Shown one piece after another: positions 10,936 to 47,313 of a stretch of 64,000 nucleotides of DNA. The notes below the pieces were generated by a model that had not been told where the DNA came from, did not search any database, and was given only the letters and a program-made list of their open reading frames with translations. Source of the DNA: Salvia splendens (lineage: Eukaryota > Streptophyta > Magnoliopsida > Lamiales > Lamiaceae); NCBI RefSeq assembly GCF_004379255.2, contig NC_056050.1, positions 1,488,001-1,552,000 of the forward strand. Reading direction: 5' to 3'. A program made the position numbers and the translations under genes. Within the stretch, counting starts at the first letter, position 1, and each line of letters starts with the position of its first letter.

Positions 10936-10953
10936 CTGGCGCCGTCTGTGGGA
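10936..10953 (+). promoter_or_regulatory. Primer-binding site (TGGCGCC class)
   Basis: CTGGCGCCGTCTGTGGGAA directly follows the LTR end. The TGGCGCC core is the usual PBS start in Tat/Athila-type plant Gypsy elements; which tRNA is used cannot be settled by eye. Confidence 0.75.
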
Positions 10954-10986
10954 AACGAAGAACCAAATCTGTGATAAAGCGAATTT

Positions 10987-13098: not shown

Positions 13099-13104
13099 CA
13101 ATCA
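13096..13104 (+). promoter_or_regulatory. Possible stop-codon readthrough site (UAG-CAA-UCA)
   Basis: The gag stop TAG is followed by CAATCA, which fits the UAG-CARYYA context known for leaky termination in tobamovirus-type readthrough. Downstream codons stay open in the same frame through 13131 into pol. An alternative is reinitiation at the ATG at 13132, which has G at -3 and G at +4. Confidence 0.5.
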
Positions 13105-13131
13105 CAGCAACCGGAGTCAGAGGCAAGCGAG

Positions 13132-16100
13132 ATGGCCGAAGTCACTTCAGAGCCGAACTCAATGACCGTTCGGTTATACGATGACGATCCATCCAGAACG
13201 GTCAAGATCGGCTTCGCAGGAACGCCTCTACTCCGAGAAAAGACCATTCAGCTCCTCAAGGAGTACAAAGATGTCTTTGCATGGTCTTCGTTGGACATGA
13301 CCGGAGTGCCCCCCGAGGTAATCACTCATCGGTTAAATATTGATCCTTCAATCCGGCCAGTAAAACAGAAGCAAAGACTCTTTGCGGCAGAAAGAAGCCA
13401 AGTCATCCATGACGAAGTCCGCCAATTACTAAAAGCGGATGTACTATTCGAGGTGAAATATCCTTCGTGGGTGGCCAATCCTGTCATGATCAAGAAAAAG
13501 GAAGGAGGATGGCGGATGTGCATAGATTTTACCGATCTAAACAAGCACTGTCCTAAAGATTGCTATCCCCTTCCGAATATAGATAAAAAAGTAGAAGCTT
13601 TGATCGGCTTCGAAATTTTCTGTTTTCTTGATCTATACAAAGGATATCACCAGGTGTTGATGGATGAGAGTGACGCTCCGAAAACAGCTTTCATTACCGA
13701 TTTCGGCATTTTCGCTTATAAAAAGATGCCATTCGGTTTAAAGAATGCCGGAGCCACTTATCAAAGGATGGTAGACAAGCTTTTTCGGCACCTAATCGGA
13801 AAGCAGGTTGAAGTGTATGTCGACGACATAGTTGTCAAAAGCAAAAGCACTTCGGAGTACGAAGACAACCTCAAGTCCACTCTCAACGTGCTCAAGAAAG
13901 CCAACCTCAAACTTAATCCCCAAAAGTGTACCTTTTTGGCAGATTCGGGAAAGTTTCTGGGTTGTTGGGTTTCAAAGGACGGACTCAAGGCAAACCCCTC
14001 AAAAGTTCAAGTCGTTCAGGACATGGCAATGCCGAAGTCCATACATGACGTGCAAAGGCTAACCGGATGTCTAGCCGCACTGAATCGATTCCTTTCCCAA
14101 GCAGCCGAAAAGCAACTGCCGTTCTTCAAGGTGTTGAAAAAGGCACCAAAGTTCGAGTGGGGAGCCGAGCAGAAAAAGGCCTTTGACGAGCTCAAAAGTT
14201 ATCTAGCCGAGCTTCCTATTCTCTCTGCTCCAACCGAAGCCGAAGTAATATTCTTATACTTAGCGGCATCGGATCAAACCATCAGCGCGGTGCTTGTACG
14301 AGAAGAAGGCCTAAAGCAGTTTCCCATCTACTTTACAAGCCGAGCATTAAGAGGTCCAGAAACAAGGTATCAACCTCTGGAAAAAATTGCTCTGGCGTTA
14401 GTAAATGCAGCAAGGAGACTGCGGCCATACTTCTACGCTCACAAGGTATGCGTCTTAACCGATCTGCCTCTTCGGCAAGTTTTGACCAAACCAGAAGCAT
14501 CAGGCAGAATCGCCAAATGGGCCATAGAGCTGGGAGAACACTCAATCGAGTATCTACCTCGGAAAGCTATCAAGGGACAAGCCTTGGCAGATTTTCTTGC
14601 AGAAGCAAAGTTCGATCAAGCAATTCCTGTTATTGCCGAACAGAAGAATTCTGCCAATGCCGAACTAGTACAGCCCTTGGAATCCGAAGTAGAGCCGCCG
14701 GACTGCTGGAGCGGATTCGTAGATGGAGCTTCAAACAAGATGGGAAGTGGAGCTGGTATTTTACTTGTCGCTCCCGACGGACACGAGGTAACCTACTCAC
14801 TTCGGTTCCTATTCCCCACTACTAATAATGAAGCCGAGTACGAAGCCCTCCTGGCCGGACTCCAGTTAGCGCAAAGTCTGCTCGTCAAATCTCTCAAAGT
14901 CCATTGTGATTCACAAGTCATAGTAAATCACATGTTGGGTACAAGTGAAGCTCGTGACGAGAGAATGAAGGAGTATTTGGACAAAGCGCAAAGCATCAGC
15001 CGAAGTTTCTCCTATTTTCGGATAATCCGCATTCCCAGAGCGGAAAATAGCCGAGCAGATACCTTAAGTAAGTTGGCCTCAGATCCGAGCTCAAAGGCGG
15101 AAGAATTAATGCATCGAAGCATTGATGAAGCCGAGGTACATTCAGTATCCAGCTCGCCGAACTGGATGACGCCGATCTTGCAGTATCTGGATCAAGGACA
15201 ATTGCCCGAGGATAGGAGAGAAGCTCGGAAGATCACGTGCCGAGCACTTCGGTACGAACTTCATGAAGGAGTCCTCTTTAGAAAGTCTTACCTCCAGCCA
15301 TTATTGCGGTGCGTAGGACCAGAAGAGACGGACTACATCCTCAGAGAAGTTCATGAAGGATCGTGCGGTAGCCACATCGGAGCCAGAGCTTTAGCTAAAA
15401 AAGTTCTGAGATGGGGATATTATTGGCCAACCTTGGTACAAGAAGCAGTGCAGCTCGTCAAGACCTGCCCGAAGTGCCAAATCCATGCAAATATCCCAAA
15501 GATGCCGCAGACCGATCTATCCACTATGCAGAGCCCTTGGCCTTTCATGCAATGGGGCATAGACATAGTGGGACCACTTCCTCAAGCTCCTCGGCAAATG
15601 AAATTCCTAATCGTTGCCGTGGACTACTTTACGAAGTGGGTGGAAGCTGAACCATTAGCTACGATAACGAGCTCGAAGGCATTGGATTTCGTCTGGAAGA
15701 ACATAGTGTGCCGATTCGGCATACCCCACATCCTCATCTCGGATAACGGGACTCAGTTCACCGACAAGACGTTCAAGAATTGGTGCCAAGAGCTGAATAT
15801 TCAACAGCGGTTCACTTCGGTCTCTCATCCACAAGCAAACGGACAAACGGAGGTAACAAATCGTATCCTGGTGAAAGGGTTAAAAGCTCGGTTAGAACAA
15901 GCCAAAGGACAATGGGTAGAAAATCTCCCTCAAGTCCTATGGTCCTACCGAACTACACCCACAATCTCCAACGGTGAAACTCCGTACAGTCTGGTGTACG
16001 GCACTGAAGCCGTAATTCCGGTGGAGATCGGCGTACCCAGTCCCCGAACTCTAAATTTCTCCTCAGAAATGAATGACGACGGACTGAGAGCCGAGCTAGA

Positions 16101-16395
16101 TCTTGCCGAAGAAAGAAGAGAATTGGCATGCATAAAAGCAGCCAAGTACAAGGAGCAAGTAGCCCGGTATTACAACCAAAGGGTGAAGAAGCTGCAATTT
16201 CAAGTGGGAGATCTCGTCTTGAGAAACAACGAAGTAAGCCGAGCAGAAAAGCTGGGCAAGCTCGAACCCACATGGGAAGGTCCGTATCGGGTGTCAGAAG
16301 TCCTCGGCAAAGGGTCTTACAAATTGGCTCACATGTCAGGAGAACAGGTACCCCGAACATGGCACATTTCCAACCTCAAAAAGTTCCATTTGTAA
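13132..16395 (+). CDS. pol: Pol polyprotein: RT, RNase H, aRNase H, integrase
   Basis: 1087 aa from the first Met; the frame is also open upstream to the gag TAG. Reverse transcriptase has FLDLYKGYHQV (about 169-179) and the YVDD active site (229-232). RNase H follows at about 355-480. A second, archaeal-type RNase H begins at about 526 (WSGFVDGASNKMGSG), with DSQ and ADTLSKLA motifs. Integrase has a zinc-binding H...H...CPKC (about 741-783) and the catalytic triad D811, D871, E907, spaced DD35E. No stop or frameshift is seen. It copies element RNA into DNA in the particle and inserts it in the nucleus. Confidence 0.95.
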   Translation: MAEVTSEPNSMTVRLYDDDPSRTVKIGFAGTPLLREKTIQLLKEYKDVFAWSSLDMTGVPPEVITHRLNIDPSIRPVKQKQRLFAAERSQVIHDEVRQLLKADVLFEVKYPSWVANPVMIKKKEGGWRMCIDFTDLNKHCPKDCYPLPNIDKKVEALIGFEIFCFLDLYKGYHQVLMDESDAPKTAFITDFGIFAYKKMPFGLKNAGATYQRMVDKLFRHLIGKQVEVYVDDIVVKSKSTSEYEDNLKSTLNVLKKANLKLNPQKCTFLADSGKFLGCWVSKDGLKANPSKVQVVQDMAMPKSIHDVQRLTGCLAALNRFLSQAAEKQLPFFKVLKKAPKFEWGAEQKKAFDELKSYLAELPILSAPTEAEVIFLYLAASDQTISAVLVREEGLKQFPIYFTSRALRGPETRYQPLEKIALALVNAARRLRPYFYAHKVCVLTDLPLRQVLTKPEASGRIAKWAIELGEHSIEYLPRKAIKGQALADFLAEAKFDQAIPVIAEQKNSANAELVQPLESEVEPPDCWSGFVDGASNKMGSGAGILLVAPDGHEVTYSLRFLFPTTNNEAEYEALLAGLQLAQSLLVKSLKVHCDSQVIVNHMLGTSEARDERMKEYLDKAQSISRSFSYFRIIRIPRAENSRADTLSKLASDPSSKAEELMHRSIDEAEVHSVSSSPNWMTPILQYLDQGQLPEDRREARKITCRALRYELHEGVLFRKSYLQPLLRCVGPEETDYILREVHEGSCGSHIGARALAKKVLRWGYYWPTLVQEAVQLVKTCPKCQIHANIPKMPQTDLSTMQSPWPFMQWGIDIVGPLPQAPRQMKFLIVAVDYFTKWVEAEPLATITSSKALDFVWKNIVCRFGIPHILISDNGTQFTDKTFKNWCQELNIQQRFTSVSHPQANGQTEVTNRILVKGLKARLEQAKGQWVENLPQVLWSYRTTPTISNGETPYSLVYGTEAVIPVEIGVPSPRTLNFSSEMNDDGLRAELDLAEERRELACIKAAKYKEQVARYYNQRVKKLQFQVGDLVLRNNEVSRAEKLGKLEPTWEGPYRVSEVLGKGSYKLAHMSGEQVPRTWHISNLKKFHL

Positions 16396-16582
16396 GAGAC
16401 AGTCCGGTCAGTCAGTCTTGAGTCCTGTTCGGTCAATGTGCTTTCTTTGGTTTGCTTGGTCTTTATTTGTCTCTGTGCGTTTTGTCTGTGTGTTTTGTCT
16501 GTCTCTGTGCGTGTCGTCTCTTACAAATGTTACTGAGGTATCTTGTTCTTCGAAGGCTGATCCCCTTCTTAGAACATGTACA

Positions 16583-17100
16583 AGCCAACGATTGAGAGTC
16601 AAAGCTTCTACAGAAGATACAAGACCACAATTCAGCTTAAACAAGCAGTTCGTCTGAAACGAGCTGCAATAAGCCAACGATTGTGAAGTCCAAGCTTCTA
16701 AAGAGGATACAAGACCACAATTCGGCTTAAAAATCAAGCACTTCGTCTGAAACGAACTGCAACAAAAGTCCGATTCTCGCGATAAAACTTGCCTGAATTA
16801 GGACAAGGGAAAGTCCGATCCACGCGATAAAACTCGCCGAATTAGGACAAGGGAAAGTCCGATCCCCAAATTAGGACAACGGAAAGTCCGATCCGAGCGA
16901 TAAAACTCGCCAAATTAGGACACAAGCTTAGTCCGGTCAAAGATGTTTATTTCATCAGACCAAAGACAAGCTTAGTCCGGTCAAAGATGTTTATTTCATC
17001 AGACCAAAGACAAGCTTAGTCCGGTCAAAGATGTTTATTTCATCAGACCAAAGACGAGTCCGGTCAAAGATGTTTATTTCATCAAAACCAAGGACCAAGT
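16583..17100 (+). repeat. Three tandem-repeat families in the element's 3' region
   Basis: An about 88-bp unit (AGCCAACGATTG ... CTGCAAYA) occurs twice at about 16583-16765. A 35-45 bp unit (AAGTCCGATCC ... AATTAGGACA) occurs about four times at 16768-16925. A 44-bp unit (ACAAGCTTAGTCCGGTCAAA) starts at 16922, 16966 and 17010, followed by decayed copies. Tandem arrays here are typical of Tat/Retand-type elements. Confidence 0.85.
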
Positions 17101-17194
17101 CTGGTCAAAGAAGAGTTCACTTCATAAGACCGAGGACAAACATCAACTTACCCCGTACCATTATCCAGGATGCCGAAGTGATTCACTTCGCTCT

Positions 17195-17207
17195 TCGGGG
17201 GGGGTAG
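17195..17207 (+). promoter_or_regulatory. Polypurine tract
   Basis: CGGGGGGGGTAG abuts the 3' LTR start at 17208, the expected plus-strand priming position. Confidence 0.8.
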
Positions 17208-17826
17208 TGATGGAGTACGTACTAAACAAGCCAGCACAAAGCCCGAGAAAGAGTATTAGTTCGGCATGACCAAAGAGTTCGGCTAAGAGTTCAGTTCGGC
17301 ACAACCAAAGAGTTCGGCCTCAGCCTACAGCTCGGTAAAAGCCAACCAATCAAGCTCTGCCCTCAGGTCGGCATCAAGCTCTACTCTCAGCATCGGCAAA
17401 AGCTGCTCGGCAATACCGAACTGGGAGACACGATCTCTCTAGTGGTGGACCCATGCAGGCTCTCATGACCTCCACGACATCCACGACATAATTACTGATG
17501 ATGTAAGCCACCGCCTAATTAGTGGCCATGCAGGATCTCATGACCTCCGTGACCTCCACGACTTAGGGTGGTGATGCAAGCCACGATCTCAGTTCTATAT
17601 ATAAACGGAACTTAGATCCGATAGAGGATTCACCAACTCTAGAGAGAAAATATCATATAGCAAGCTTGTATTTGTAAGCTGTAGAAAACAGATCAAGCAA
17701 TACAACTCTGCTCTCTTTTCTTCCCGTGGACGTAGATTTACCTCAGTAAATCGAACCACGTAAATCTCTGTGTTGTGATCTCTACTTTCCTGCATTTACT
17801 ACCACCAAAAATTCGCGGATTCATCA
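17208..17826 (+). repeat. 3' LTR of the Tat-type element
   Basis: 619 bp, the same ends as the 5' LTR, one visible substitution. Confidence 0.95.
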
Positions 17827-22476: not shown

Positions 22477-22620
22477 GAAATATTCCGTCTTCTCTCTTCA
22501 ACGTTTCCTCATTGGAACGCATATGCCTCAGTGACAATTCTATATCTGGAAGTATACCCACGAATTTGGACAATTTACCAAACCTCCTAATACTGGATCT
22601 TGCCATGAATAACTTAACAG
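22477..22620 (+). CDS. 144-bp double-LRR exon, module copy 2
   Basis: Acceptor GATAG|G, donor CAG|GTGAGT. Two LRRs (NIPSSLFNVSSL, SIPTNLDNLPNL). The following intron opens with the same bases as the intron after 9923. Confidence 0.85.
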
Positions 22621-23134
22621 GTGAGTGGAACAACTTTTCTACTACTCATTTGCCCCCAGTTCATAATTGGTTATCTTTATTTGCTTAAAAAAACTTTTGG
22701 TCCCACACATTAAGATTGATAGCTTCTGATAAAAAATTTTATACTACTACCATAAATATGAAACATTTTATTTTTTACACGAGATTTTATGTAGTTTTAT
22801 TATTTGAGTTAATGAAAAGAGAGTACAGTTAGATAAAGGAAAAAGTAGAGATGGTTTTACTACTATCATTTTAAGAAACATTTCATTTATAATGGGACAA
22901 CCTAAAAAAAGAAAATGCTTCATTTTTAATGAGACACCCCAAAACAAGAAAATACCTTATTTTTAAAGGGACAGAGAGAGTATACTCTTTCGGGCCGAAT
23001 ACTTTTAATTTATTGCTAAGATGATAAGATCAAAGGAATACTTAAAGTAATAACCTTATAAATCTTCAGTCGGATCAAGTTGTTTCTACTATTATTCCTT
23101 TCGGACAATGTTATACTTTCGGACAAACTGATAG

Positions 23135-28178: not shown

Positions 28179-29949
28179 GGGATGTATTCATTTCCTTTTC
28201 CTATATTTCCTCATTTTTCCTTCTTAATATCAGCTATTAGATTAGAAAAATGGACGGTCAAGATCAAAATTGGGTAATTAATCCCGTGTTGCATTATTTG
28301 TCCTATTTTGTGCATTATGAGGGTACAATAGTAATATAATAATGGCTGGAAACCGCTACGAATAATGCACCACATGGTAACGAGTAATGCATATAATTAC
28401 CTATATAATGCACAATTTGTGAACTGCAATGCATACGAACAAGATGTGCTGTGTTATGATGTTTGACACACGTTTCTTGTTTCTCCTAAGGGTTTAATAA
28501 GCTTAGGGGCTAGGGGATAGTACGTACGCATTAATAACAAATTATATAACGATACGAATAATTCACCAACTTGTCACGAGTAATGTATGTTATTAACTAT
28601 ATAATCCACAATATGTGAACTGCAATGCATACGAATAAGATGTACCATGTTATGATGTTTGACACATGTTTCTTGTTTCCCCTAAGGGTTTAATAAGCTT
28701 AGGGGCTAGGGTATAGTATGTACACACGAATGTAATCTTCACATGATAACGAGTAATGGATATAATTGACTATATAATGCACAATTTGTGAACTGCAATG
28801 CATACGAACAAGATGTGCTGTGTTATGATGTTTGACACATGTTTCTTGTTTCCCCTAAGGGTTTAATAAGCTTAGGGGCTAGGGTGTAGTACGTACGCAT
28901 TAATAACAAATTGTAAACCACTACGAATAATGCATCACATGGTAACGAGTAATGCATATAATTGACTATATAATTGGCTCAACTTATTTTAACACAAGTA
29001 ATACCCGCAAGTGTACGGGGCTAGTGTAGCAATTAGTAAGCAAGAGTATCGTATCCCACAGAGACAATTTTGTATCAGCTTAACTACCACGAACAAAGAT
29101 CAACTACTATCTAGACAATCAAGTGCAGTTTTGTTTGTTCTAACAACTAATAAAAGCATATAATAAGCAAATATCAATTAAGGACTAGAAAAGGCGGTGC
29201 GGCGATGATATGAGAGATACTATGGAGAAAATGTAGAACTCAAGGATCCGATGCACAATTCCAAGCTCTTATCCAATTGATTCGCCTTACCTTTTGGTGT
29301 CTCTAGAGTTACTAAGTCAACCACGATTATAGATTAAACCCCCTCCCGGGGTGAGAAACCTGCAGATTAGATGCTAGAATTGAAGTCCCCTTCTAATCCT
29401 AAAACCTCTAACTCCCAAAAGTTTGATTAGGTTAATGACCTCACTCAAAACCTCAACTCTCCCGAGTTCTATTGTATTAAGGTGTGAATTATTCTTCTTT
29501 CCGGATTAACTATTTCATCTCCCGATTAATCTAATTAATCCTACACAATCAAATGGTGATCAAGCAATTGAAAGGAATAAACCCAAGAATAATCAAATAA
29601 CTACAAGAGCAAGGCAAGAGCAAAATCAATCGGATAAAAACTATGAAATTAGTGCATCATCACCAAGAATTCTACAAGAGATGTTTAGCTACTCATGTTT
29701 ATGAAGAAAATCATGTTCAACACAAAGAAATTCAACAAACACATGAAATATAGATACTAAGTACTCCTGTGAGAGCAATCTATGGAATGAAGCTTCAATC
29801 TTCCGATATAGAGTCTTCAATCTTCAAATCTCTCTCTCAAAGGTGTTCTTGGGGTGTGTGTGAGTGTTGGAGGCGGTAGGTGTAATGTGTGTCCGAACCC
29901 TAGGCTTTTTCCCTTCTATTTCCCTTCAAAAATCGCGTTTTTAGCTTTC

Positions 29950-30090
29950 AGACGCGTCAGACAATCCGACCCGGTCGGGTTGTATTTTTGAACTGGAAAT
30001 TCAACCCGGCCGGGTCACCATTTTAGGACAGTTGCTGGATTCTGACTCAACCCGGCTGGGTTGTATTTTTGCACTGTAAATTAACCCGGC
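29950..30090. repeat. Four CCCGGCCGGG-type palindromes in the LTR
   Basis: AACCCGGCCGGGTT or one-base variants occur four times within about 130 bp, and again in the other LTR at 33900-34030. Candidate protein-binding or methylation-dense sites; role unknown. Confidence 0.8.
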
Positions 30091-30433
30091 CGGGTTACAT
30101 GTGCGCGGCTTTCGTAGATCGGCCATATCTCTCTCATCCAAACTCCGATTAGGCCGTTTGAGATACCCACGCGAAGCTCTTTCGAAGACGAAGAGAATGA
30201 TATGCAGTGGGTGTTGATTGGACTTCAAAATCTCTAGAAGAATTGTCTCAAACCAAGGCTGCTGCATATCCACCTATTTTACACCTTTTTCTACACATTC
30301 TTAACAAAAAGGTCAACATACCAACATAATAGAGAAGTAGATATAAACACGCCTAATAATAGACGAAATATGATCACATTCATACAAGACCACCCTCTAA
30401 AACCATGTAAAATCCAAGTATGTCAACTCCCCC

Positions 30434-31931
30434 AAACTTACATAATTGCTAGTCCTCGAGCAATGAAGAAAAAGAATTAAAAGAAGACTTGGATTTAAAG
30501 GGGTTTTAGACATCATCATCGTCTCAAAGAATATGGAATAAAGGAGCATATCACAATACAAATTCCATCAAGTTAAGCTGTCGAATGCACTTTTGCTACT
30601 AACTCGTATATCACCTTGGATTCGTACTTCACTCGGGATGTATATATGTGTGTATATTCACCTCACTAAAAAGTGTTTAACGTATCAAGTAGTCACTCAA
30701 ATCAAGCAAAAATGCATGGTTTACCATAAGCTTGCTCAATGTCTAACCTCTCCTCTACCTCGTATGACAATACATCAAGAGTCCGAAAGGTCTTTTGTTT
30801 AGGTTATAATGTAGGCTCTTTGGTAAGGTGAGGAAATATTTGGCTAAAGTGACTGAAATTCCCAAAACGTAAAATCCCAAGAGATCACAACAATCAACTT
30901 TTAACTTCAACCATTCTCAAAACACTTCTAGATAATAACTAGACTTTGTCTAATTTCTTCCCAACTTCCAAAGACCTCAAATTATTCTCTATATACAATT
31001 TTTTTTCTTTCTTCTTTTTTTTTCTTTTTCTCTTCTTTTTTTTTTCTTTTTCATTCACTCTTTTTTTTTTCTAAGTACAAACTCAACCAACCTTTTTCAA
31101 TTATACTTTCCCAACTCTTCTTTTTCAAATCTCAACAAATTTAGAGTCTAGGATTCCCAATCCACTTGATTAGCTTGACAAAAGAAAAGGCTTAAGGCTC
31201 AAACTTGGCTATCAAGGATGTTATGTATTAAGGTTAGTGTGTAGGTAAAAATGAGGCTAACAACGATGGCCTAACATCTTCCCCTATCTTTAAGGTCACT
31301 ATGTAGACTCAAGAAGACCAGGAGCAAGTTCTAGAAACACATGCACAATTGATGATAAAACACACATGAAAGAATTGAAGGCTCAAAAATCTCACTTGGG
31401 TAAATAGCATGAATCAAGGCAAACAAGCAATTCGTTACTTATGCACCCAATTACTCAAACTCTCAAGTCAATGGTCAAGTGATAGCTCAAAATGGATGGT
31501 TCTTTTATCATAGACGACTAGTCTTCACCCCAATTACTACCAAATTTTTTTCAATTCAAGCTCAAAATTTTCAATCAATCACAACCAAACAACACAAAAC
31601 TTCATGAATTTCTTATACAAAGCAATTCTATCCTAAAACAAAATAAAAACAACAAAACACAACTAATCAAACTAAAGCAAAAATAAAGGAAAAAGACAAG
31701 TACCTCGTTAGTGTCCCTATCCACCATATCATCCCCCCAAACTTATTCAAAGCTATGCAAAGAATAAGTTTGAAAAGTTGGTGGAGAAGGGAGACTAACA
31801 TGGTATACAAGCAACATAAAACACACAAAAAACAAACAGAAACAAAAGAATTAAAAGATACCTACTAGGGGTTACCTCCCCTACAGTGCCTTTGGTTTTC
31901 GTCGTTGGCTCGACGTCGTCCATGAGCTGCA
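30434..31931 (-). other. 3' internal region of the Athila-like element
   Basis: No ORF that I trust. A pyrimidine-rich stretch (about 30997-31080, mostly T with C) and AC-rich sequence. It would be the long 3' untranslated part of the element. Confidence 0.6.
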
Positions 31932-32938
31932 TCATGTCACGCCATAAATGGTGGCGTTGGATTTTCTGTCAATCTTGGAAGCATATGATATAGCCAATCT
32001 CTTCTTCCACCAAGTATTTTTCAGAGCCCCATCAGAAATTTCAGTTTCCACTTTGGATAAATTTTCAGCTTTTGTTTTCTTCACCTTCACTTTAGGATTT
32101 GATGTAGTCTCTTCTTTAGAAGTTGATCCACCACATGAACCAAACATCCATTGCGGTAAAGAAAAATCCCCAAATGTGGACTCAATTTCTTGTGCCTTTT
32201 GGACCTCTACAACGTGCACAGCTTTGCACTCTTTCTTCATAACAAGTTCTTCTTCCTCACGACTCTTCATAGCATTGTAGATAGATAGGATGTGACGTTT
32301 GTTACCCATATGAAGAGTGAGCTCTCCCTTTGCCACATCTATCAATGCTTTTCCCGTTGCAAGGAATGGGCGCCCCAGGATAAGCGGTATATTCACGTCT
32401 TCTTCCATATCCAATACTACAAAATCGACGGGAAATATGAAGTCATGTACCCTCACAAGAACGTCCTCAACAATTCCTTTAGGATAGGTGACAGTTCTAT
32501 CTGCCATCTGTAGTGTTATTGTTGTCGGCTTGAGAGTGCCGATCTTCATCTTTCTGAAAAATGATAATGGCATCAAATTTATGCTCGCCCCCAGATCACA
32601 AAGTGCCTTTGTCTGTCTGTCATTTCCAATAACGCATGAGATGTTGAAACTCCCAGGATCTTTAAGCTTGGCCGGTAGCTTTTTCTGAATTATGGCACTA
32701 CAATTTTCAGATATGTTCACCGTCTCATAGTCAGTCCACTTCTTCTTCTTGGAGAGCACATCTTTTAGAAACTTTGCATATGTAGGCATTTGCTGTAACG
32801 CCTCTACCAACGGGATGTTGATGTTCACTTTTCTAAATATGTCAAGAAACCGAGAGAAGTCATCATCTAGTTTCTTCTTCTGCACGCGCTGTGGAAATGG
32901 GATGTTGATGTTCACTTTTCTAAATATGTCAAGAAACC
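31932..32938 (-). pseudogene. Gag-protease remnant of the Athila-like element
   Basis: The recognisable part runs from FPQRVQKKKLDDDFSRF through EALQQMPTYAKFLKDVLSKK to an aspartic protease with CDLGASINLMPLS (D-L-G in place of DTG, normal for this group) and PLILGRPFLATG. A 13-residue segment (FLDIFRKVNINIP) occurs twice at about 32835-32870 and 32905-32938, at the fusion to the LTR. The frame runs on into LTR sequence to 33029, which is not native coding. Gag 5' half and pol are lost. Confidence 0.8.
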
Positions 32939-35334
32939 CGCAAGTGTACGGGGCTAGTGTAGCAATTAGTAAGCAAGAGTATCGTATCCCACAGAGACAA
33001 TTTTGTATCAGCTTAACTACCACGAACAAAGATCAACTACTATCTAGACAATCAAGTGCAGTTTTGTTTGTTCTAACAACTAATAAAAGCATATAATAAG
33101 CAAATATCAATTAAGGACTAGAAAAGGCGGTGCGGCGATGATATGAGAGATACTATGGAGAAAATGTAGAACTCAAGGATCCGATGCACAATTCCAAGCT
33201 CTTATCCAATTGATTCGCCTTACCTTTTGGTGTCTCTAGAGTTACTAAGTCAACCACGATTATAGATTAAACCCCCTCCCGGGGTGAGAAACCTGCAGAT
33301 TAGATGCTAGAATTGAAGTCCCCTTCTAATCCTAAAACCTCTAACTCCCAAAAGTTTGATTAGGTTAATGACCTCACTCAAAACCTCAACTCTCCCGAGT
33401 TCTATTGTATTAAGGTGTGAATTATTCTTCTTTCCGGATTAACTATTTCATCTCCCGATTAATCTAATTAATCCTACACAATCAAATGGTGATCAAGCAA
33501 TTGAAAGGAATAAACCCAAGAATAATCAAATAACTACAAGAGCAAGGCAAGAGCAAAATCAATCGGATAAAAACTATGAAATTAGTGCATCATCACCAAG
33601 AATTCTACAAGAGATGTTTAGCTACTCATGTTTATGAAGAAAATCATGTTCAACACAAAGAAATTCAACAAACACATGAAATATAGATACTAAGTACTCC
33701 TGTGAGAGCAATCTATGGAATGAAGCTTCAATCTTCCGATATAGAGTCTTCAATCTTCAAATCTCTCTCTCAAAGGTGTTCTTGGGGTGTGTGTGAGTGT
33801 TGGAGGCGGTAGGTGTAATGTGTGTCCGAACCCTAGGCTTTTTCCCTTCTATTTCCCTTCAAAAATCGCGTTTTTAGCTTTCAGACGCGTCAGACAATCC
33901 GACCCGGTCGGGTTGTATTTTTGAACTGGAAATTCAACCCGGCCGGGTCACCATTTTAGGACAGTTGCTGGATTCTGACTCAACCCGGCCGGGTTGTATT
34001 TTTGCACTGTAAATTAACCCGGCCGGGTTACATGTGCGCGGCTTTCGTAGATCGGCCATATCTCTCTCATCCAAACTCCGATTAGGCCGTTTGAGATACC
34101 CACGCGAAGCTCTTTCGAAGACGAAGAGAATGATATGCAGTGGGTGTTGATTGGACTTCAAAATCTCTAGAAGAATTGTCTCAAACCAAGGCTGCTGCAT
34201 ATCCACCTATTTTACACCTTTTTCTACACATTCTTAACAAAAAGGTCAACATACCAACATAATAGAGAAGTAGATATAAACACGCCTAATAATAGACGAA
34301 ATATGATCACATTCATACAAGACCACCCTCTAAAACCATGTAAAATCCAAGTATGTCAATAATGCACAATTTTTGAACTGCAATGCATACGAACAAGATG
34401 TGCTGTGTTATTATGTTTGACACACGTTTCTTGTTTCCCCTAAGAGTTTAATAAGCTTAGGGGCTAGGGTATAGTACGTACACATTACTAAATGCACGTA
34501 TGTAATCTTCACTGCGATGATTAACCCATATACACAATACCTCTAATAATGCATAATATACTCAGATAATGACAATTAACAGCTACATAATGCACTACCT
34601 AAACCAAATAATGCACATACGTATATTCCAATAACAACAATTTGTTAGTAATGTCTACGTACTATACCCTAGCCCCTAAGCTTATTAAACCCTTAGGGGA
34701 AACAAGAAACGTGTGTCAAACATCATAACATGGTACATCGTATTCGTATGCATTGCAGTTCACATATTGTGCATTATATAGTTCATAACATCCATTACTC
34801 GTGACAATTTGGTGAATTATTCGTATCGTTTTATAATTTGTTATAAATGCGTACGTACTATACCCTATCCCCTAAGCTTATTAAACCCTTAGGGGAAACA
34901 AGAAACGTGTGTCAAACATCATAACACAACACATCTTGTTTGTATGCATTGCAGTTCACAAATTGTGCAATATATAGTCAATTATATCCATTACTATTGA
35001 CCATGTGAAGATTACATACGTGTCTACGTACTATACCCTAGCCCCTAAGCTTATTAAACCCTTAGGGGAAACAAGAAACGTGTGTCAAACATCATAACAT
35101 GGTACATCTTATTCGTATGCATTACAGTTCACATATTGTGCATTATATAGTCAATTATATGCATTACTCGTGACCATGTGGTGCATTATTCGTAGATACC
35201 AAAATGTGGCAGTTCCTTTTTCGTCAAATGACAATAATAACCCTGAGATCAATCTGGTCCATTGATGCCTTAGATCTAACGCATAATATTAAGAAAGAAA
35301 AAGGATCTAAGATGTGAAAAGGAGAATAAGGCTC

Positions 35335-35715: not shown

Positions 35716-36011
35716 GAGGCTAGGGAGGGGCCATGCAAATTTGGGGGCCCAGGGCGGCCGCTCCACTTGCCCCCCTCATGACCGGCCCTGCTCTTAATCG
35801 GGGACGGAGGGAGTAGATGTGTAGTGTGTTAAGTGAGTAGGTAATAAAGTAGATAAAGTAAGAAAAAAATAGAGAGAATAAAGTAAAAAATGAATAAATT
35901 AATGGATAGAATGAAGTGGGAAAGATAACTCAACAACGAAGGAACTAATACTATTTAGTCATGTCAACTCTACCATGTTCAAACTTTAATTATTACTGTC
36001 CATGCTCTATC

Positions 36012-37494
36012 ATTTTTTTATAACAGACTCACCCTCACAGGAGGAATTCCAACCTCTGTCACCAATGCTTCTCAGCTTACTGATATTGACTTGAGCAGCA
36101 ATTCATTCACTGGCCCCATCCCCGACTTCGGTAACCTAAGACATCTGCACTTCCTTGATCTAAGTGACAATAATTTGACTGGGATTGAATCGCCAAATCA
36201 AGAATTGGAGTTTCTCTCTGGTTTAGTAAACTGCCAAAATTTAGTTAGCTTGGATATTAGTAACAATCCGATGATGAATGGTATCCTTCCAGCTTCCATT
36301 GGGAACTTGTCTACTTCTCTTTCCAGCTTTACAGCATCTGACTGCAGCATCAGAGGTATAATTCCTCCTGAATTTGGAAATTTGAGGCATTTGGAAGTTT
36401 TGGATTTATCCAAGAATCAACTCACAGGATTCATCCCAACTACATTTTCAAAGGGTTGCAGGCTTGAGTCACTCGACTTGAATGGTAATAAGTTGGAAGG
36501 AGCGTTACCCCGATCCCTTTCCAATTGTCGAAGTATGCGGGTTCTTAATATTGGAAACAACAGAATACAAGACACCTTTCCGGTTTGGACTGGAAATCTC
36601 ACTGATCTTCGCGTCCTCATATTGAGATCCAACAACTTTAGTGGTACCATTCCTTCTCTCACTTCCAATACTACTCTTCCATTCCCCAAGTTACAGGTTT
36701 TCGATATGTCCCATAATGCATTCATTGGCAATCTGCCCCAAGAATATCTGAGGAACTTCAAAGGGATGATCGATCTACAAGAGAATCATCGAGGAGAATA
36801 CGGGTTTCCGTATCAGTTTCTGATTCCCATGCTCCTTGCTGATTCATATTCGTTTACAGTAACAATGAAAGGTTCGGATCTAGAATATAAGAGAAGTTTG
36901 ATAGCCTTGGCAACACTTGACATGTCATCCAACAGATTCTCAGGCAGTATACCAAATTCCATAGGAGATTTAAATTACTTGATTAATTTGAATCTGTCTC
37001 ACAATTGCCTCACTGGAGGTATACCTGCATCTCTTGGAAACATTACGAAACTCGAGTCGCTGGACTTGTCTTCAAACCGGTTGGAAGGTGAAATTCCAAC
37101 AGAGCTTACAAAGCTCACATTTCTTTCTACGGTGAACTTTTCCACGAATAATCTATCAGGGAAGATACCTCAATCCAGTGGCCAGTTTTCCACATTCGAA
37201 AATACATCATATGTTGGGAATTCTGAACTATGCGGATTTCCTTTATCACGAAAATGTGAAAAGCCTTTGCCTCCAGTGATGCTGCAAGAAGAAGATAATG
37301 ATGATTATGGTATTCTAGATGGATTCTGTTGGCAGGCCGTTGTTTCAGGGTATGGATGTGGATTCGTAATAGGTGGGATTGTGGGTTGTCTGATTTTTGG
37401 GTATGGAAGGCCTAAATGGTTGTTGGAATGGATCTACAGATTTTACAGGATAAAGATGAGAAGAAATGTGGCACCACAAAGAAGAAGAAGATAA
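36012..37494 (+). CDS. Chimeric LRR receptor-like protein, second copy, 5' incomplete
   Basis: The frame opens upstream of the nominal start (a TTG at 36091). LRR coding is visible from about 36018 (RLTLTGGIPTSVTNASQLTD). It ends in RRRR and a TAA at 37492-37494. First LRRs (PNQELEFLSGLVNC, NNPMMNGILPASIGNLSTSL) match the RLK at 40942-47313. From GFIPTTFSKGCRLESLDLNG onward (about 36427) it becomes Cf-like RLP: island, four LRRs, NSELCG cap, acidic segment (EEDNDDYGIL), transmembrane helix and basic tail. No signal peptide or first exons are seen nearby. The sequence before 36018 resembles an acceptor (TTATAACAG), but its phase does not fit exon 26453-26524. It may be the last exon of the plus-strand locus or a truncated gene. 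Confidence 0.75.
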
Positions 37495-40941: not shown

Positions 40942-43900
40942 TCAAGATCTGCTTTGCTTCTTCTTGGCTGCTTCTACTCTAGCCCTGAACTTCTGTAATG
41001 CAGCTGCTACTTGCATCATGTTGATCCTTTGCTCAGGCGAAAAGGCCAAACATTTCATCGCCAAATCAAAAATAGACGACACACATTGCTCGTTCACAGG
41101 AAAATGCCGATCTGATCTTGATAGCAAACCGGGAGCCACAACTTCACTTATCCCATCTTCTTGTAACGCTTTGCCTACCCACTCCTTTATGCCCATTTCT
41201 CCTCTAAACATATCATCTGTTGGTCTCTTACTCGTAAAAATCTCCAACAACAGTATCCCAAAACTATATACATCCCCGTGTGTGGATACTTTTCCTTCTG
41301 ATCCATACTCTATTTGTAACATTGCACATGTTTGTCAATAGCCACAAGAAGAAAAGAAACTTATAGACTGTGGTCCGTTATAATGTTAACTTTTCTTAAA
41401 TTGCTAACTTGCTAACTAATCATCGTAGTGTATTAAAAATGTTAATATGATCACATTAAAATGTCAACACAAATTTGTACATGTGTTAACATTTTAAAAT
41501 ACTGTGTCGACATTTTAAATATCAAGTCAACATAGTGTATTAAATATCAACTAAGTTTATATTGACATTTCAATATCATCACTTTGACATTGTAAATACA
41601 CTGCATTGATGAGTTAGCAGAGTTAGCAATGGATCACACCTCCTTATAGACATTCATATATTAGATATTTTAAAGTAATTTAGATTACCTGGTGCTGCAT
41701 AACCGATAGTTGCCATAGTAATAGTATGAATCACAGCTTCCCGATCCTTAAAAAGTTTCGAAATGCTAAAATCACCAACATGCGCAGTCATATCTTCATC
41801 AAGCAACACATTGTTCGGCTTTATATCACAATGAACAACCGTAAAAGTGTGATTGTGATGAAGATACTCCAAGGCCAACGCGACGTCTATGGCTATGTTC
41901 AACCTTTTCACCAAATCCAAAACATACACGTCGGAATGCAGCCATTTCTCCAGACTCCCATTAGGCATGTACGCAAGAATCAAGGCCTTGAACTGCTTAT
42001 TGCTGCAACAACCAAGTATCTTGATCAAGTTCCTGTGGCGAATACTGCCAAGTATCTGACTCTCTGTGTCGAAGCTCTTGAGCGCTCCTTCCAATTCCAA
42101 GTTGAACACTTTCACTGCTACAGTTGTGTCATCCGCAAGCACTGCTTTGAATACTGAACCAAAGCTCCCTTTTCCGAGTAGGTTCATCTCACTAAACGAA
42201 CTCGTCCCCTGCGTGAGTTCCCTCTCTGAGATGATCTTCCACGAAGCTCCCACTGACGAGAAGTCAGGAGCTGGCACATTTTTCCGTCTGCGTCTCTTTA
42301 TGAGGAAAACTATGATCAATACCAAAATCAAAGCTCCAATGAAGGGAGGCACAACATATTTCAATATCATTGCAGTTGTTTCCAATCTTGACCTTCCACT
42401 CCCACAAGGTGGCACTTGGAATCTTCTGGCGCCGCATAGATTAGGGTTTTGAGTAAAAGAGTCAGCAGAGAAGTTGGCAAAGCAACCCCCTTCTGGAATC
42501 TTCCCTTGCAAATTGTTGCGCGAAACATTGAAATATTGGAGTTTGAGATTTTCTAGAGAGGCGGGTATCGAACCGGAGAGATTATTACTTGATAGACTCA
42601 GATTCGTCAAGCCTCTAACCTTCTCCAAAGAATCGGGGATAGATCCATTCAACATATTATTCGACAAAAACAAGACCTCAAGAGATTGGCAACTAACAAT
42701 TGTGTTTGGAATGTTTCCTGAAAACTTGTTAGAAGACAAGTCAAGATAGGTGAGAGCAGTCAAACTTGTGAATTGATCAGGAATTTGACCATTCAAACTG
42801 TTTGAAGACAAGTTGAGATCTATGAGCTTTGGAAGATTTAAGAAGTTGAAAGGGAGTGTGGAATTCAGCTTGTTTGATGCAAAAGAAACTCTTTGGAGTG
42901 ATTTAATACCTCCCAAACATTCAGGTATTGAACCTGTTAGTATATTACCACTCAACTCTAACTCCACCAAAGCAATGTTTTGGCAAAGCTGATGAGGGAT
43001 ATATCCTTGTAGCTGGTTATCATAAAGATGTAACTTTCCAAGTAGATTTAGTTTTCCCATTGTTGTTGGGATGGTACCAGTGAGTTGATTCTTGGATAAA
43101 TCCAAAACCTTCAAACTCCTCAAATTTCCAATTTCAGGAGGAATAATACCTCTGATGCTGCAGTTAGATGCTGCAAAGTTGACAAGAGAAGTAGACAAGT
43201 TCCCTATGGAAGGTGGAAGGATACCATTCATCATCGGGTTGTCGTTAATTTCAAAGTTTGTCAAGTTTAGGCAGTTTGCTAATGAAGAGAGAAATCCGAG
43301 TTCTTGATTCGGAGAGTCTGCTCCAGTTAGATTATTTTCCCAAAGGCGAAGGGATTTCAGCTGTCTTAGATCACCAAAATTGGGAACGGGACCAGTGAAT
43401 GAGTTTCTGTTCAATTCTATAACAGTAAGTTTAGAAGCATTGGTGATGGAGGTCGGAATTTCACCATTGAGTCTGTTAAAGAATAAATAAACTTCTTCGA
43501 GATTGACAAGTGAGATCCCCATGTCTGAAGGAAGACTACCAGAAAACTGATTTTGTTGAAGAGAAAGTGTCTTCAAATTTGATAAGTTGAATATGGAAGA
43601 GGGGATGGGACCGGACAACAAATCGTTGAACGATGCTGCTAAGAACTCGATGTTTGCTAGATTGCCAAGCTCTTCCGGTAACTGGCCTGCAGTAAAAATA
43701 ATTATGCAAATTTGATAAACTAGTTTTCAAAGAAATCACAATTATATACTCCCTCCGTTTATGAAATAATATCACAATTTGCTATTTTGAGATGTCCATA
43801 TTTTTAGCATCGATTCCCTCCGTCCCACAATAATTGTACTCTTTTCCATTTCGGTCCGTCCCACAATAATTGTCACACTTCATTTTTACCATAAATGGTC

Positions 43901-46900
43901 AGTAAGTCCCGCATTCCACTAACTCACATCACTCACATTTTATTATAAAACCAATATAAAAAAGTAGATTTCACATTCCACTAACTTTTCCAACCCACTT
44001 TTCTTTACATTTCTTAAAACTCGTGCCCACAATAAGAGTGACAACTATTGTGGGACGGAGGGAGTAATTTACCTTTTACGCCCTCCGTCCCACTCAAGAT
44101 GACCATATTCCTGAGTGGCACGAGATTTTAGGAAAAATTGTTAGGTGGAATAAAGTAGAGAAAAAAAAGGTAGTTGAATATTTTAATGGGGAGAGAGGAG
44201 GTTATTTCTAAAACTGGAAAGTAGTCATCTTAAATAGGACAAACTAAAAAAGAAAGGTGGACATCTTGAATGGACCGGAGAGAGTACAATTTTAGGTATG
44301 AGCCTCACACTCCATTAAAAGTGGGATTATATTTGATAACTTTTTCCACAACTTTCCTTCACATTTTTTAAATTCATGTTGAGTCAAAATGGGGCTACAA
44401 ATAATGGTTAGAGGGAGTATTATTATTTACAACACCATTTTTCTCAAACAATTTACCACCTCCCAAAACACCTAAGTAATCATATTCCATTTTCTTACAT
44501 CTACTTATGAACTATTTATAAACAACTTTTTTAATAACTTTGTTATGAATATGTGATGAAATAAACTAACAATGTACAAGTATATAAACGTACCCGCCAG
44601 CTTATTCGAAGCAAAATCAAGATCTACTAGTGAAGATATGTTCCCGATTTGGCTTGGTATTTGACCTAAATAATAAAATTGAAAATGTTACTTATAGAAT
44701 TTTATACAAATGCCAGAACTATATGAAATAAGTAACATTAAATATGGATTTATGTTCAAGATCATCAAGACAAATGTTGAAGGGATAAGTAGTCGAATAT
44801 AAGTTTTAGATTTATCTAAATATTGGTTACACGAACTGATCTAATTGTGATTTTTTATAATATTAATTATCAAAAGAAATAGGTTATCTTTCAAAATACT
44901 AAATACCTTCTTCGCACAAATATTACAAATACTACAGTACTACTTCAATATTTTCCATGGCAAAAAAAAAATTTCACTCTTTTATTTATTATTTTAACTG
45001 ATCCTTCAAGAATTTGCTTGTGAAACATCAAATCCTTCAAGAATTTTTCACTGCCAATTGATCCTTTCAATATAAATGCCTTCTACAAGAATCGATTATA
45101 TTGTTTTTATTTCCTTTTTGTCGTACGAATCGTTTATTTTTTATTGATATATTATTTTTGATATCTCGCCTTATGAATCTAGATATCTTGAGTATTTTTA
45201 GGATTAATCATCAGGTTTTCTTGTCGGTTATTTCCTAATTAGGATTAGGAAGGTCGAACCATCAAGAATTGCCGGCTCTACAAAACTAGAGCTCCATAGA
45301 TCACAAATCATTGAGAAATAAGAAATAAAATGTTGGAATAAAATAATTAAACTTGATTTTTGTAGTAGAATTATCTAGATATTATGTAGAATTCTCTAAA
45401 TATTAGCAGGTACTCCATCCGGTCCCCATTAAATATCTCATATTTCCTTATTTGGACGGTCCCTAATAAATATCATATTTCACTTTTATCATTTTTAGTA
45501 GTAGACCTACATTCCACTAACTCATTATTACTCACATTCTATTATAAAACTAATAGTATATAAAAGTATGACCTATATTCCACTAACTTTTTCCACCAAA
45601 TTTTCTTCACAAAGTCAAACAATTTCTTAAAACCTGCACCGGTCAAATATGGGACATTTAATGGGGACCGGAGACAGTATTAAAATATCTAGATATTTTA
45701 GGAGAACTCTCTAGATTACATATATTATTGAAGAAAATATCTAGATTTTTATAGAGAAAAATATAGATATTTAGAATATAAAATGAATATATATTAGGAT
45801 TCTAGAATAGGAGTGGATGGCTATAAATATGGGAGAGATCACCATTATGCTGATGCAAGTTGAGAACTTGAGAAGTTGAGAAATAAATTGTTCCTGCTTT
45901 CCCACATCACCAACCTCTCCTAAATCATTTCTCATATATTCTACCCATTGTCCTCTCAATTATTTCCTCCAAACTAAAATACTCCTCCAACATATACTCT
46001 GTCAACCGTGTGCTCTTATTTAGACAATAAGGATCAAGAACCTATCAATTTTCTATACGTACAATGTGGTCGACTTAAATATTATGTTGTTTCTTTGATA
46101 GGGTATAAGCTAGTATAAAGTTTAAGTATTAAATGAAAGAAATTATCAAAATTCAAATCATACCTGTTAAGTTGTTTCCAGAAAGGGCCATAGTATTCAA
46201 GGAAGTAAGATGGCCAATCTCCTTCGGTATGCCACCTATCAATTTGTCATAGTATAATAGCGTAAGTAATTAATTACTCTCATATTAATTACAATAAACA
46301 ACATGGGAAGTTTGAAGGGTTATGCCCTTGGACTTGGTCCTGATAAGTGTTTAAACAAAATGTAGAGAGATAGTATAATAGGTAGTTTATTGTTCCAAGT
46401 TGTTGTTCACACCTGTTAGTTTGTTGGTGTTAAGAAACAACTCTATGAGGTTGAGTAAATTGTCCAAATTCGTGGGTATTCTTCCAGACAGATTATTGTC
46501 ATCGAGGTATATGTATTGCAACGACGATGTGTTGAAGATAGAAGACGGAATATTTCCTATTATAATATGGAAAATAATATTTGTTAAAATGGTTAAATTA
46601 ATTATACATAGATTAACCTAATTATTACCTTGGAGATGGTTGTCATATATAGATAATAGAGTAAGCATGCTCAAATTCCCAATTTCAGTAGGTATGTTGC
46701 CATTGAATTGGTTTTCTGACAAGCTCAACTCCTCCATTTCGCTGCACTTATATATACTCGTTGGAATTTTTCCATAGATTTGATTCTCTCTGAGATAAAA
46801 CCTATTCAATTTCGGAGTATTGTTGCATATATCACTTGGGAGCTCGCCTGATAGCTTGTTAAATCTCAGATTAATTTCTTCCAATGCAGACATGTTTGTA

Positions 46901-47313
46901 AGGATACCTCTTGGTATTTCTCCACTGAAGTTGTTAGACGCCACGTTTACATGCTTCAGACGGTGTAGTTTAGACAGCTCAGTTGGTAAGACACCTGCGA
47001 AGTTGTTGGAGCTGATGTCCAAGGACTGGAGAAACGTTAGGTTTCCAAGATATGGGGAGAGATTCCCGTGGAGGGCGGAGTTGGAGAGGTTGAGGGCTGT
47101 GACCCTGTGGTGTTTGAGGCCACACGAGACCCCGGCCCAATCACATATGGAAGTGTTGGTGAGCCAGTTGTTGCTCAAGACACCATTTGTGTCTATGGTC
47201 GCCTTTTTGAATGCAAGAAGAGCATCTTGATCAGTGGTTAGAGTTGCAGATGAGGTGAGGGTGAAGAAGATGATTAATGTAATCAAAATAGGAAACAAGA
47301 AAGAGGTCCCCAT
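40942..47313 (-). CDS. LRR receptor kinase, subfamily XII-like (non-RD)
   Basis: Exons (minus): 47313-46629, 46556-46413, 46235-46164, 44665-44594, 43686-41689, 41309-40942. All are GT-AG and in phase; total 3339 nt, 1112 aa. I prefer the ATG at 47313 to the one at 47334, because only the former is shared with the paralogue at 7888. Signal peptide 1-25; LRRNT with DWAGVSC; about 22 LRRs; NPNLCG cap; transmembrane helix about 768-787 followed by KRRRRK; kinase about 823-1105. Kinase residues: GKGSFGSV (829-836), K850 in VAVK, HCDIKPNN (H943-D945, hence non-RD), and DFS (963-965) instead of DFG. Close to FLS2/EFR/Xa21-type pattern receptors by architecture. No stop or frameshift seen, so probably functional, though DFS may lower activity. 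Confidence 0.9.
41372..41640. mobile_element. MITE-like repeat in the kinase intron
   Basis: Within intron 41310-41688. It shares TGTCAACACAAATTTGT and end sequences with 26711-26968. Confidence 0.5.
43815..44286. mobile_element. Two adjacent Stowaway MITEs in an RLK intron
   Basis: The first, about 43815-44066, has a doubled left end (CGTCCCACAATAATTGT twice) and ends TGTGGGACGGAGGGAGTA. The second, 44077-44286, runs TACGCCCTCCGTCCCACTC to GGACCGGAGAGAGTA. A third, half element ends near 44420. Confidence 0.8.
45331..45992 (+). mobile_element. Solo LTR (Copia-like) with a MITE inside
   Basis: TGTTGGAATAAAA to CTCCTCCAACA, with a TATA box (CTATAAATATGG, about 45821-45832). It lies in an intron of the minus RLK, antisense to the gene. 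No matching 5-bp flanks (TAAAA and TATAC), so it may come from recombination between different copies. Confidence 0.7.
45411..45679. mobile_element. Stowaway MITE nested in the solo LTR
   Basis: TACTCCATCCGGTCCCCATT to AATGGGGACCGGAGACAGTA with TA ends. LTR text continues on both sides. Confidence 0.8.

Follow-up and report, generated by a model that had tools for sequence, protein, structure and literature searches.

A Salvia gene family that joins the ligand-side repeats of a subfamily XII receptor kinase to the C-terminal part of a Cf-like receptor-like protein

Genes at the locus

The window, by which we mean the whole 64,000-nucleotide stretch of the Salvia splendens genome analysed here (C19:1488001-1552000 of an 806-Mb assembly), holds two tandem copies of a kinase-less leucine-rich-repeat (LRR) receptor gene and, linked closely to this gene and in the opposite orientation, an LRR receptor-like kinase (RLK) of subfamily XII type. 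The receptor gene ends in an exon whose limits are most likely 36041-37494 and which lies in a stop-to-stop open reading frame, 35959-37494 on the forward strand, with zero internal stops. The left part of this exon (the N-block) is of RLK type, while its right part (the C-block) is a cassette of the kind found in Cf-like receptor-like proteins (RLPs), in which LRRs, an island domain, the last four LRRs, a cap, an acidic juxtamembrane stretch, a transmembrane helix, a basic tail and the stop follow one another. The features are listed below in window coordinates.

7888-8524, forward strand: exon 1, with signal peptide, LRRNT cap and first LRRs, of XII-RLK type; GT donor, phase 1
9543-9614, forward strand: LRR exon of 24 aa; AG/GT borders, phase 1, open
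9780-9923, forward strand: LRR exon of 48 aa; AG/GT borders, phase 1, open
22477-22620, forward strand: candidate LRR exon of 48 aa, its membership in the mRNA unsure; AG/GT borders, phase 1
36041-36438, forward strand: left part of the chimeric exon, RLK-derived LRRs, the 131-aa N-block (scans, site tests, trees)
36433-36447, forward strand: joint, ATC CCA ACT ACA TTT, 'IPTTF' (best split of informative sites, codon match)
36439-37494, forward strand: right part of the chimeric exon, Cf-like RLP cassette (scans, C-block tree, AlphaFold2 model, motifs)
36766-36897, forward strand: island domain, about model residues 247-290 (AlphaFold2 model)
37183-37194, forward strand: QFST, a QxxT motif in the terminal LRR region (motif scan)
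37330-37404, forward strand: transmembrane helix GYGCGFVIGGIVG with three consecutive GxxxG (model helix 435-459, motif scan)
37405-37491, forward strand: short basic cytosolic tail, without kinase (reading frame, model, motif scan)
1-1427, forward strand: copy 1 of the chimeric exon, joint at about 339-347; the left end is the window edge
40942-41309, reverse strand: RLK exon 6, end of the kinase (gene model)
41689-43686, reverse strand: RLK exon 5, with LRRs, transmembrane segment and most of the kinase (reading frame, gene model)
44594-46556, reverse strand: RLK exons 2-4, at 46556-46413, 46235-46164 and 44665-44594 (gene model)
46629-47313, reverse strand: exon 1 of the parental-type XII RLK (gene model)

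The genome match of copy 1 begins at C19:1487928, 73 bases before the window. For the second copy, 7888-8524, 9543-9614, 9780-9923, 22477-22620 and 36041-37494 can be joined through phase-1 GT-AG introns into an open model of 816 aa, the first 213 aa of which are 76.5% identical to those of the window RLK. The exon at 22477-22620 resembles the one at 9780-9923, and so do their flanks (10050-10225 is repeated at 22752-22927 with 85% identity).

Could the exon at 36041 be a lone, 5'-truncated fragment? This reading is disfavoured, because nine genome copies, namely L001, L002, L003, L005, L006, L007, L008, L045 and L047, have an exon 1 of the same XII type (72-100% identity) upstream of the chimeric exon and on its strand, as obtained by combining two match lists by position. 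The gap between the two exons ranges from 0.4 to 27.8 kb across these nine copies and is compact in L006 (0.4 kb) and L045 (0.7 kb), while the start-to-start spacing from exon 1 to the last exon is 28.1 and 28.4 kb in the tandem copies. We consider it likely, judging from these sequences, that the gene has an RLK-type first exon. Three other exon-1 matches in the cluster (C19:1374268, 1355951 and 1253786) could not be assigned to a chimeric exon. What is more, P0242, an annotated full-length paralogue of 927 aa carrying the last exon of paralogue L004, starts with a first exon of a different XII-like type (45% identity to the window's exon 1), so that 5' exons vary within the family. An XII-like first exon of the P0242 type, unlike the window's, was seen at L004, L046 and L048.

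The stretch of about 28 kb between exon 1 and the last exon contains many transposable elements. In particular, a Ty3/gypsy-like retroelement, recognized by its long reading frames, occupies window positions 10317-17507 in the intron, and as its 300-nt direct end repeats are 100% identical, its insertion is probably young. Further downstream, at 28350-35195, inverted repeat pairs I1-I7, with arms of 154-422 nt that are 88-94% complementary and lie 5.7-6.5 kb apart, surround a stretch with identical 300-nt direct repeats at 29003 and 32936.

The window RLK has a whole model of 1112 aa, and its terminal LRR region reads EGGCFANF, without a QxxT motif. Its kinase, of the non-RD kind (HCD), carries DFS in place of DFG, while a relative in S. 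hispanica, P0122, has DFG; from its sequence, the window RLK is possibly a pseudokinase.

Ancestry on the two sides of the joint

Mosaic scans were run against panels of 148 RLKs (the window RLK among them) and 52 canonical RLPs. At a scan width of 40 aa, RLKs were favoured in 100% of scan windows left of the change point and RLPs in 100% of those right of it, with the same result for the exon 36041-37494, the full gene model and copy 1. At 50 aa, a single left scan window of the full model favoured RLPs, by 6 points; it covers residues 301-350, at the border between the exon at 22477 and the last exon. The rest agreed. As for the canonical RLP controls, 11 of the 12 had no RLK-like start in the 40-aa scan, and P0038 had a short, weak one.

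Informative-site tests, in which the exon was compared with the RLK and with each of four RLPs in turn (P0055, P0008, P0009 and P0104), gave 44-48 RLK-like versus 5-9 RLP-like sites on the left side and 13-19 versus 59-67 on the right. Copy 1, compared with one RLP, gave ratios of 39:5 and 15:63, and in none of the five runs did any of 2000 site-order shuffles reach the observed fit. The best split fell between residues 138 and 140 or 139 and 140 (36439-36447) in three of the four runs on the exon, and between residues 133 and 140 (36424-36447) in the fourth. The first-pass annotation of this DNA had described a change from RLK-like to Cf-like RLP sequence after GFIPTT, inside one exon, at about 36427-36450 (338-355 in copy 1); the scans and site tests bear out such a sharp switch, with best splits in or at the edge of these intervals. 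It had also taken the joint to be common to both copies and the fusion to be older than their duplication, and with this our results agree. Its description of the left-hand LRRs as almost identical to those of the RLK, however, holds for the existence of a shared block only, since nucleotide identity over the 131 aa is 0.80 for the copy at 36041-37494 and 0.79 for copy 1.

Separate trees were built for the two sides of the joint. In the N-block tree of 64 rows, whose bootstrap had not converged, all 18 chimera rows fall into one clade among RLKs (bootstrap 97, SH-aLRT 88), and the grouping of chimeras with the window RLK and P0122, the S. hispanica RLK, is weak (83/41). In a 31-row tree the latter clade has values of 96/87, forcing the chimeras outside the RLKs is rejected with a p-AU of 0.033, and so is grouping them with other RLPs (p-AU 0.035), these p-values being modest ones from an alignment of 131 columns. 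In the C-block tree (64 rows), on the other hand, the chimera rows (15/15) form one clade with an SH-aLRT of 100, whose sister group comprises S. splendens C13-type RLPs and one Perilla RLP (95). Both trees place the S. hispanica proteins P0002, P0006 and P0012 within the chimera clade. Synonymous distances to the window RLK over the N-block are 0.32-0.50 for four copies; over the C-block, dS from L001 to two C13-type RLPs is 1.35 and 1.49, and dS to the RLK is saturated. In other words, the two halves do not come together in one RLP clade.

The chimera and RLP loci used here were chosen from at least 136 genome matches, and the RLK loci are the first 16 of at least 73; L025-L031 were omitted, as they occupy the same places as L002-L008 or adjoining stretches. 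On C19/C20, 14 of the 16 family loci scored have the N-block (score 381-544) together with at least part of the C-block, and L046 and L051 have a C-block without an N-block. N-block scores are 99-162 and C-block scores 826-925 in the 12 C13-type RLP loci, of which nine lie on C13 or C14 and the other three on C19, C4 and C6, compared with 258-672 and 209-295 in the 16 RLK loci; a thirteenth C13-type locus, L044 (72 and 272), was too broken and was kept out of the trees. The 131-aa block is thus missing from the nearest RLPs. An RLK-like block ancestral in RLPs, or a single RLP clade holding both halves, had been named at the outset as findings that would speak against a fusion, and neither was seen.

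With scans, site tests and incongruent trees in agreement, we regard the chimera as confirmed at the level of sequence: it is a single mosaic gene, RLK-derived on the left and RLP-derived on the right. An artefact of frame or assembly was considered and rejected, given that the exon is open and that the fusion recurs at other genome loci and in S. hispanica proteins. Because these proteins have the fusion in common with S. splendens, it predates the separation of S. splendens and S. hispanica, and the earlier dating, to before the duplication of the two copies, can be refined to a fusion far older than the tandem pair. What the sequences of the Salvia family do show is one capture from an RLK, younger than the RLP lineage that carries it. 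That said, the picture of an RLK that swapped its kinase, as originally drawn, is right about the fusion and is only one wording of its direction. Namely, the nearest RLPs seemingly are XII-type at the N-terminus already, so an RLP acquiring the ectodomain of a neighbouring RLK describes the event equally well.

Long and short forms of the joint

The joint seen in the window occurs likewise in S. splendens paralogues and in S. hispanica P0006, and in S. hispanica P0012 the sequence near it is altered. P0002 of S. hispanica and L050/P0005 of S. splendens have two copies of the junction repeat, separated by an odd insert, a change that falls exactly at the joint. Two S. splendens paralogues, L008 and L032, keep the RLP-side joint, IPTTFSKGC, preceded by seven extra, mostly RLK-like, repeats. 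The distance from IPTTMGKLN to IPTTFSKGC is 168 aa, or 7 x 24, in L008 and L032 alike, and in L032 one more repeat, further upstream, is duplicated. Behind the first IPTT of L008 comes a stretch of 113 aa with 84% identity to the window RLK, the best RLP reaching 41%; over the last 55 aa of the extra segment RLKs are somewhat closer than RLPs (0.60 versus 0.53), with the final repeat undecided. At the codon level, the short form follows repeat A (RLK-type) through ATC CCA and repeat B (RLP-type) from ACT ACA TTT onwards.

Which of the two forms came first? As seven more repeats stand before the same joint in L008 and L032, the short joint probably goes back to a secondary deletion in frame. 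A single such deletion between two IPTT repeats would probably have turned the long into the short form, and from the sequences compared the long form is likely to be the earlier. GFIPTT stands as the place of the switch, but it is probably not the original joint: the long-form paralogues and the codon switch point to a probable later deletion of seven repeats. The alternative order, in which the fusion began with the short joint and L008 and L032 acquired their long form later, when RLK repeats were inserted by gene conversion with a neighbouring RLK, seems to us rather unlikely. The extra segment of L008 is slightly nearer to the RLK (dS 0.25) than is the preceding block (0.41), as expected under gene conversion, and in the 31-row tree long-form L008 groups weakly with short-form L007 (90/75). 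In the larger, 64-row tree, however, a clade of 15 short-form rows (96/92) excludes the long forms, and an insertion would need to strike the same joint from outside, whereas a deletion from IPTT to IPTT is one event and accounts for both the exact difference of 7 x 24 aa and the codon switch.

With the deletion as the preferred reading, the history of the family may be outlined as follows. As the sequences show, part of the LRR ectodomain of a XII-type RLK was joined, in an ancestor of S. splendens and S. hispanica, to the 3' cassette of a Cf-like RLP. The first product likely retained nearly the whole RLK ectodomain, as L008 and L032 do; recombination between two 'GxIPTT' repeats then likely dropped seven LRRs in frame, giving the short joint, and the cluster would have multiplied afterwards. 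In FLS2, a XII RLK, contact with BAK1 is made through the 3rd to 12th last LRRs, according to excerpts of PMC10834447. Going by position, the short joint would remove the RLK repeats of this FLS2-like BAK1-contact region.

A putative receptor and its relatives

In the AlphaFold2 model the LRR solenoid runs unbroken through the joint, with pLDDT values of 92-98. The island is modelled as a low-confidence loop (257-271) and two strands (275-280 and 283-288), after which four LRR strands begin at 296, 320, 344 and 368, and there is a cytosolic helix at 463-479. Foldseek was uninformative on class, with BRI1 ectodomains ranking first (TMq 0.64) and RXEG1 at rank 30 (TMq 0.45). All 12 S. splendens C-blocks tested have a QxxT motif, an acidic juxtamembrane stretch (net charge -4 to -12) and three GxxxG in a row; they represent 12 of the 16 chimera-family loci (L047, L049, L050 and L051 were left out), and the island pattern Yx8KG is found in nine of these 12, the exceptions being L001 (the window copy), L004 and L048. 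The kinase HMM had no match in the open reading frame or in the model, and the model scored 287.0 with the XII HMM versus 114.8 with the Cf HMM, its N-terminal cap lacking the paired cysteines and CC-W-G-C pattern of the Cf type. Domain assignments draw on HMMs built for this analysis and on the Pfam entries listed with the protein matches. In terms of class, the protein has what defines an LRR-RLP of the 'ID + 4LRR' type, i.e. an LRR ectodomain, one transmembrane segment, no kinase and an island before the last four LRRs; of LRR-RLK subfamily XII it has the ectodomain type, left of the joint only, and not the kinase domain, where the XII label of the panel derives from match names and subfamily XII is the one RLK subfamily in the HMM test.

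Selection was estimated among nine copies (L006, L046, L047, L048, L049, L050 and L051 were left aside and the pair L008/L032 was not counted), giving dN/dS of 0.44 for the N-block and 0.45 for the C-block. At exposed strand positions the values are 1.13 in the N-block (15 codons) and 0.91 in the C-block (20), versus 0.36 and 0.44 elsewhere.

According to excerpts of PMC10834447, SERK and SOBIR1 binding is assigned to the island with four LRRs, QxxT/S, the acidic juxtamembrane stretch and GxxxG. Our main reading, to which we would give a probability of roughly 0.7, is that the gene belongs to a Salvia family of natural LRR-XII-RLK/LRR-RLP chimeras in which RLK specificity feeds an RLP pathway. 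The product would be a working surface receptor, whose RLK-derived repeats may sense a ligand like that of the parent RLK or one diverged from it. The last four LRRs with QxxT would recruit BAK1/SERK, and the acidic juxtamembrane stretch and GxxxG helix would bind SOBIR1, a recruitment that we infer from the motifs. As the C-terminal repeats and the kinase of the RLK are gone, signalling would proceed in the way of RLPs.

Might a chimera that arose as described nevertheless be dead or dying in this copy, split by transposons over 29.6 kb and yielding no useful protein? The retroelement and further repeats found from 10 to 36 kb could suggest so, as could the state of the paralogues, with stops in 5 of the 16 fetched loci (L006, L047, L049, L050 and L051) and L048 split into two matches, and the two possible acceptors at the 5' end of the last exon. 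We consider this unlikely: the exon is open, dN/dS among the nine copies is 0.44-0.45, the spacing between exon 1 and the last exon is kept in both tandem copies, and the splice sites and phases of the model fit. Long introns filled with transposable elements are, moreover, tolerated by plants.

A decoy role had been put forward in the first-pass annotation, where it was marked as inference. A decoy or dominant-negative competitor, which would bind the RLK ligand without signalling or hold BAK1, would be in keeping with ligand-side repeats in common with the RLK, an absent kinase, and tight linkage to the RLK in opposite orientation. We do not favour this role and hold it to be improbable, because the signalling motifs of RLPs are kept: a decoy need not retain QxxT, the acidic juxtamembrane stretch and the triple GxxxG, yet 12/12 C-blocks tested do, and amino-acid changes among copies cluster at the exposed positions of the N-block (15 codons). 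Finally, that there was no fusion at all, the RLK-like block being old in RLPs and the likeness due to slow LRR evolution or convergence, is very improbable indeed, for although LRRs are repetitive and the nearest RLPs, too, seem XII-type at the N-terminus, the block is missing in 12/12 scored C13-type RLP loci, dS to the RLK is 0.32-0.50 versus 1.35-1.49 on the other side, and over the signal peptide and cap the identity to the RLK is 76.5%.

The Salvia chimera is not the only kinase-less protein with a XII-type N-terminus. Among 305 proteins compared, 28 kinase-less ones, including the window model and some cotton and Camellia rows that are near-copies, have the RLK-type single-cysteine cap. 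With HMMs built from 94 RLKs, 56 RLPs and 18 RLP C-termini, XII being the only RLK subfamily included, the XII N-terminal HMM beats the Cf HMM by at least 40 bits in 28/28, and the RLP C-terminal HMM scores 341-512. These XII-N RLPs come from Erythranthe, Paulownia, Gossypium, Hibiscus, Reevesia, Fagus, Camellia, Daucus and Salvia. Since P0055 is among the 28 and an exon-1-like match lies upstream on the same strand in at least 8 of the 12 C13-type RLP loci, the C13-type RLPs, as far as their sequences tell, probably belong to this class too. Counted back from the FPxW landmark, the joint lies at 28-40 aa in 11 cotton proteins, at 46-47 aa in short forms of S. splendens, at 53-115 aa in ten further proteins of Lamiales, at 114 aa in Fagus and at 139-200 aa in Reevesia and Camellia, by estimates that vary with the panel, and the exact Salvia joint was found in no protein outside Salvia among the best 120 of 6410, 7513 and 7653 protein matches. 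XII-N and Cf-N RLPs interleave in the C-block tree, where, with type labels kept only where tested, four type changes fit best and well-supported branches force one. From this pattern, separate origins of XII-N RLPs are plausible. Tentatively, and with less confidence, one may go on to suppose that the RLP C-terminal cassette is a movable signalling module, which repeatedly captured XII-RLK ectodomains at different LRR joints, the repeats at the seam then being lost or duplicated in 24-aa steps. If this were true, pathogen specificities would pass between kinase-bearing and SOBIR1-dependent receptor pathways, and the loss or gain of 24-aa repeats at the seam would tune the receptor.

How does the chimera compare with receptors already described? 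With RLPs of the Cf/9DC/RLP23 type ('ID + 4LRR'), as characterized in excerpts of PMC10834447, it shares the island before the last four LRRs, QxxT and the acidic juxtamembrane stretch, and it is also like Cf/9DC/RLP23-type RLPs in its GxxxG transmembrane helix, short basic tail and absent kinase. Unlike in Cf-type RLPs, its N-terminal cap and LRRs are of XII-RLK type rather than CC-W-G-C, and its 5' end is multi-exon, as in the RLK. LRR-RLKs of subfamily XII (FLS2/EFR/Xa21/At3g47570-like) have the same signal peptide, cap and exon phases, and the same LRRs as far as the joint, but the chimera lacks their kinase and terminal LRRs and has a different transmembrane segment and an RLP island. Xa21D of rice, a relative of XII RLKs without kinase, is a truncation, whereas in the Salvia chimera a full RLP C-terminus takes the place of the lost part. 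The engineered receptors RLP23-EFR and RLP23-BRI1, again in excerpts of PMC10834447, resemble it in that RLK and RLP pieces are joined within the ectodomain or juxtamembrane region; those are laboratory swaps of the terminal parts of RLP23, whereas in Salvia the swap is natural and concerns the ligand-side part. The XII-N RLPs of Erythranthe, Paulownia, Gossypium, Reevesia, Hibiscus, Fagus, Camellia and Daucus are alike in their XII-type N-terminus and RLP C-terminus, as judged by HMM, and differ in their joints, which lie from about 28 to 200 aa before FPxW versus 46-47. The nearest precedent that we found, in excerpts of PMC7318236, is the placement of 15 of 57 Arabidopsis LRR-RLPs within LRR-RLK trees and the occurrence of gene fusions among LRR-RLKs; a report of natural XII-RLK/RLP ectodomain chimeras was not found in the CC-licensed PMC literature, as far as the excerpts retrieved from it extend.

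Among LRR immune receptors, XII RLKs and RLPs make up two large classes, which are commonly counted and studied apart. A conserved natural family in which the sensing part belongs to one class and the signalling part to the other suggests that specificities can be carried from class to class, and it offers receptor engineering a set of joints tested by evolution. What is more, a survey of RLPs by their C-terminal part alone would overlook the RLK origin of the ligand side.

Two minor observations concern individual copies. L007 (G000:C19:1246565-1248553) has an open frame of 670 aa with two tandem RLP modules, each with an island-like region, and the presence of both modules in one frame amounts to another whole-module change. 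In the island of copy 1 (window 700-780), about 11 Phe-Pro-like dipeptides follow one another, GFPFPFPIPFRIPFPFPFPFPIP; this run is missing in copy 2 and is likely a slipped repeat.
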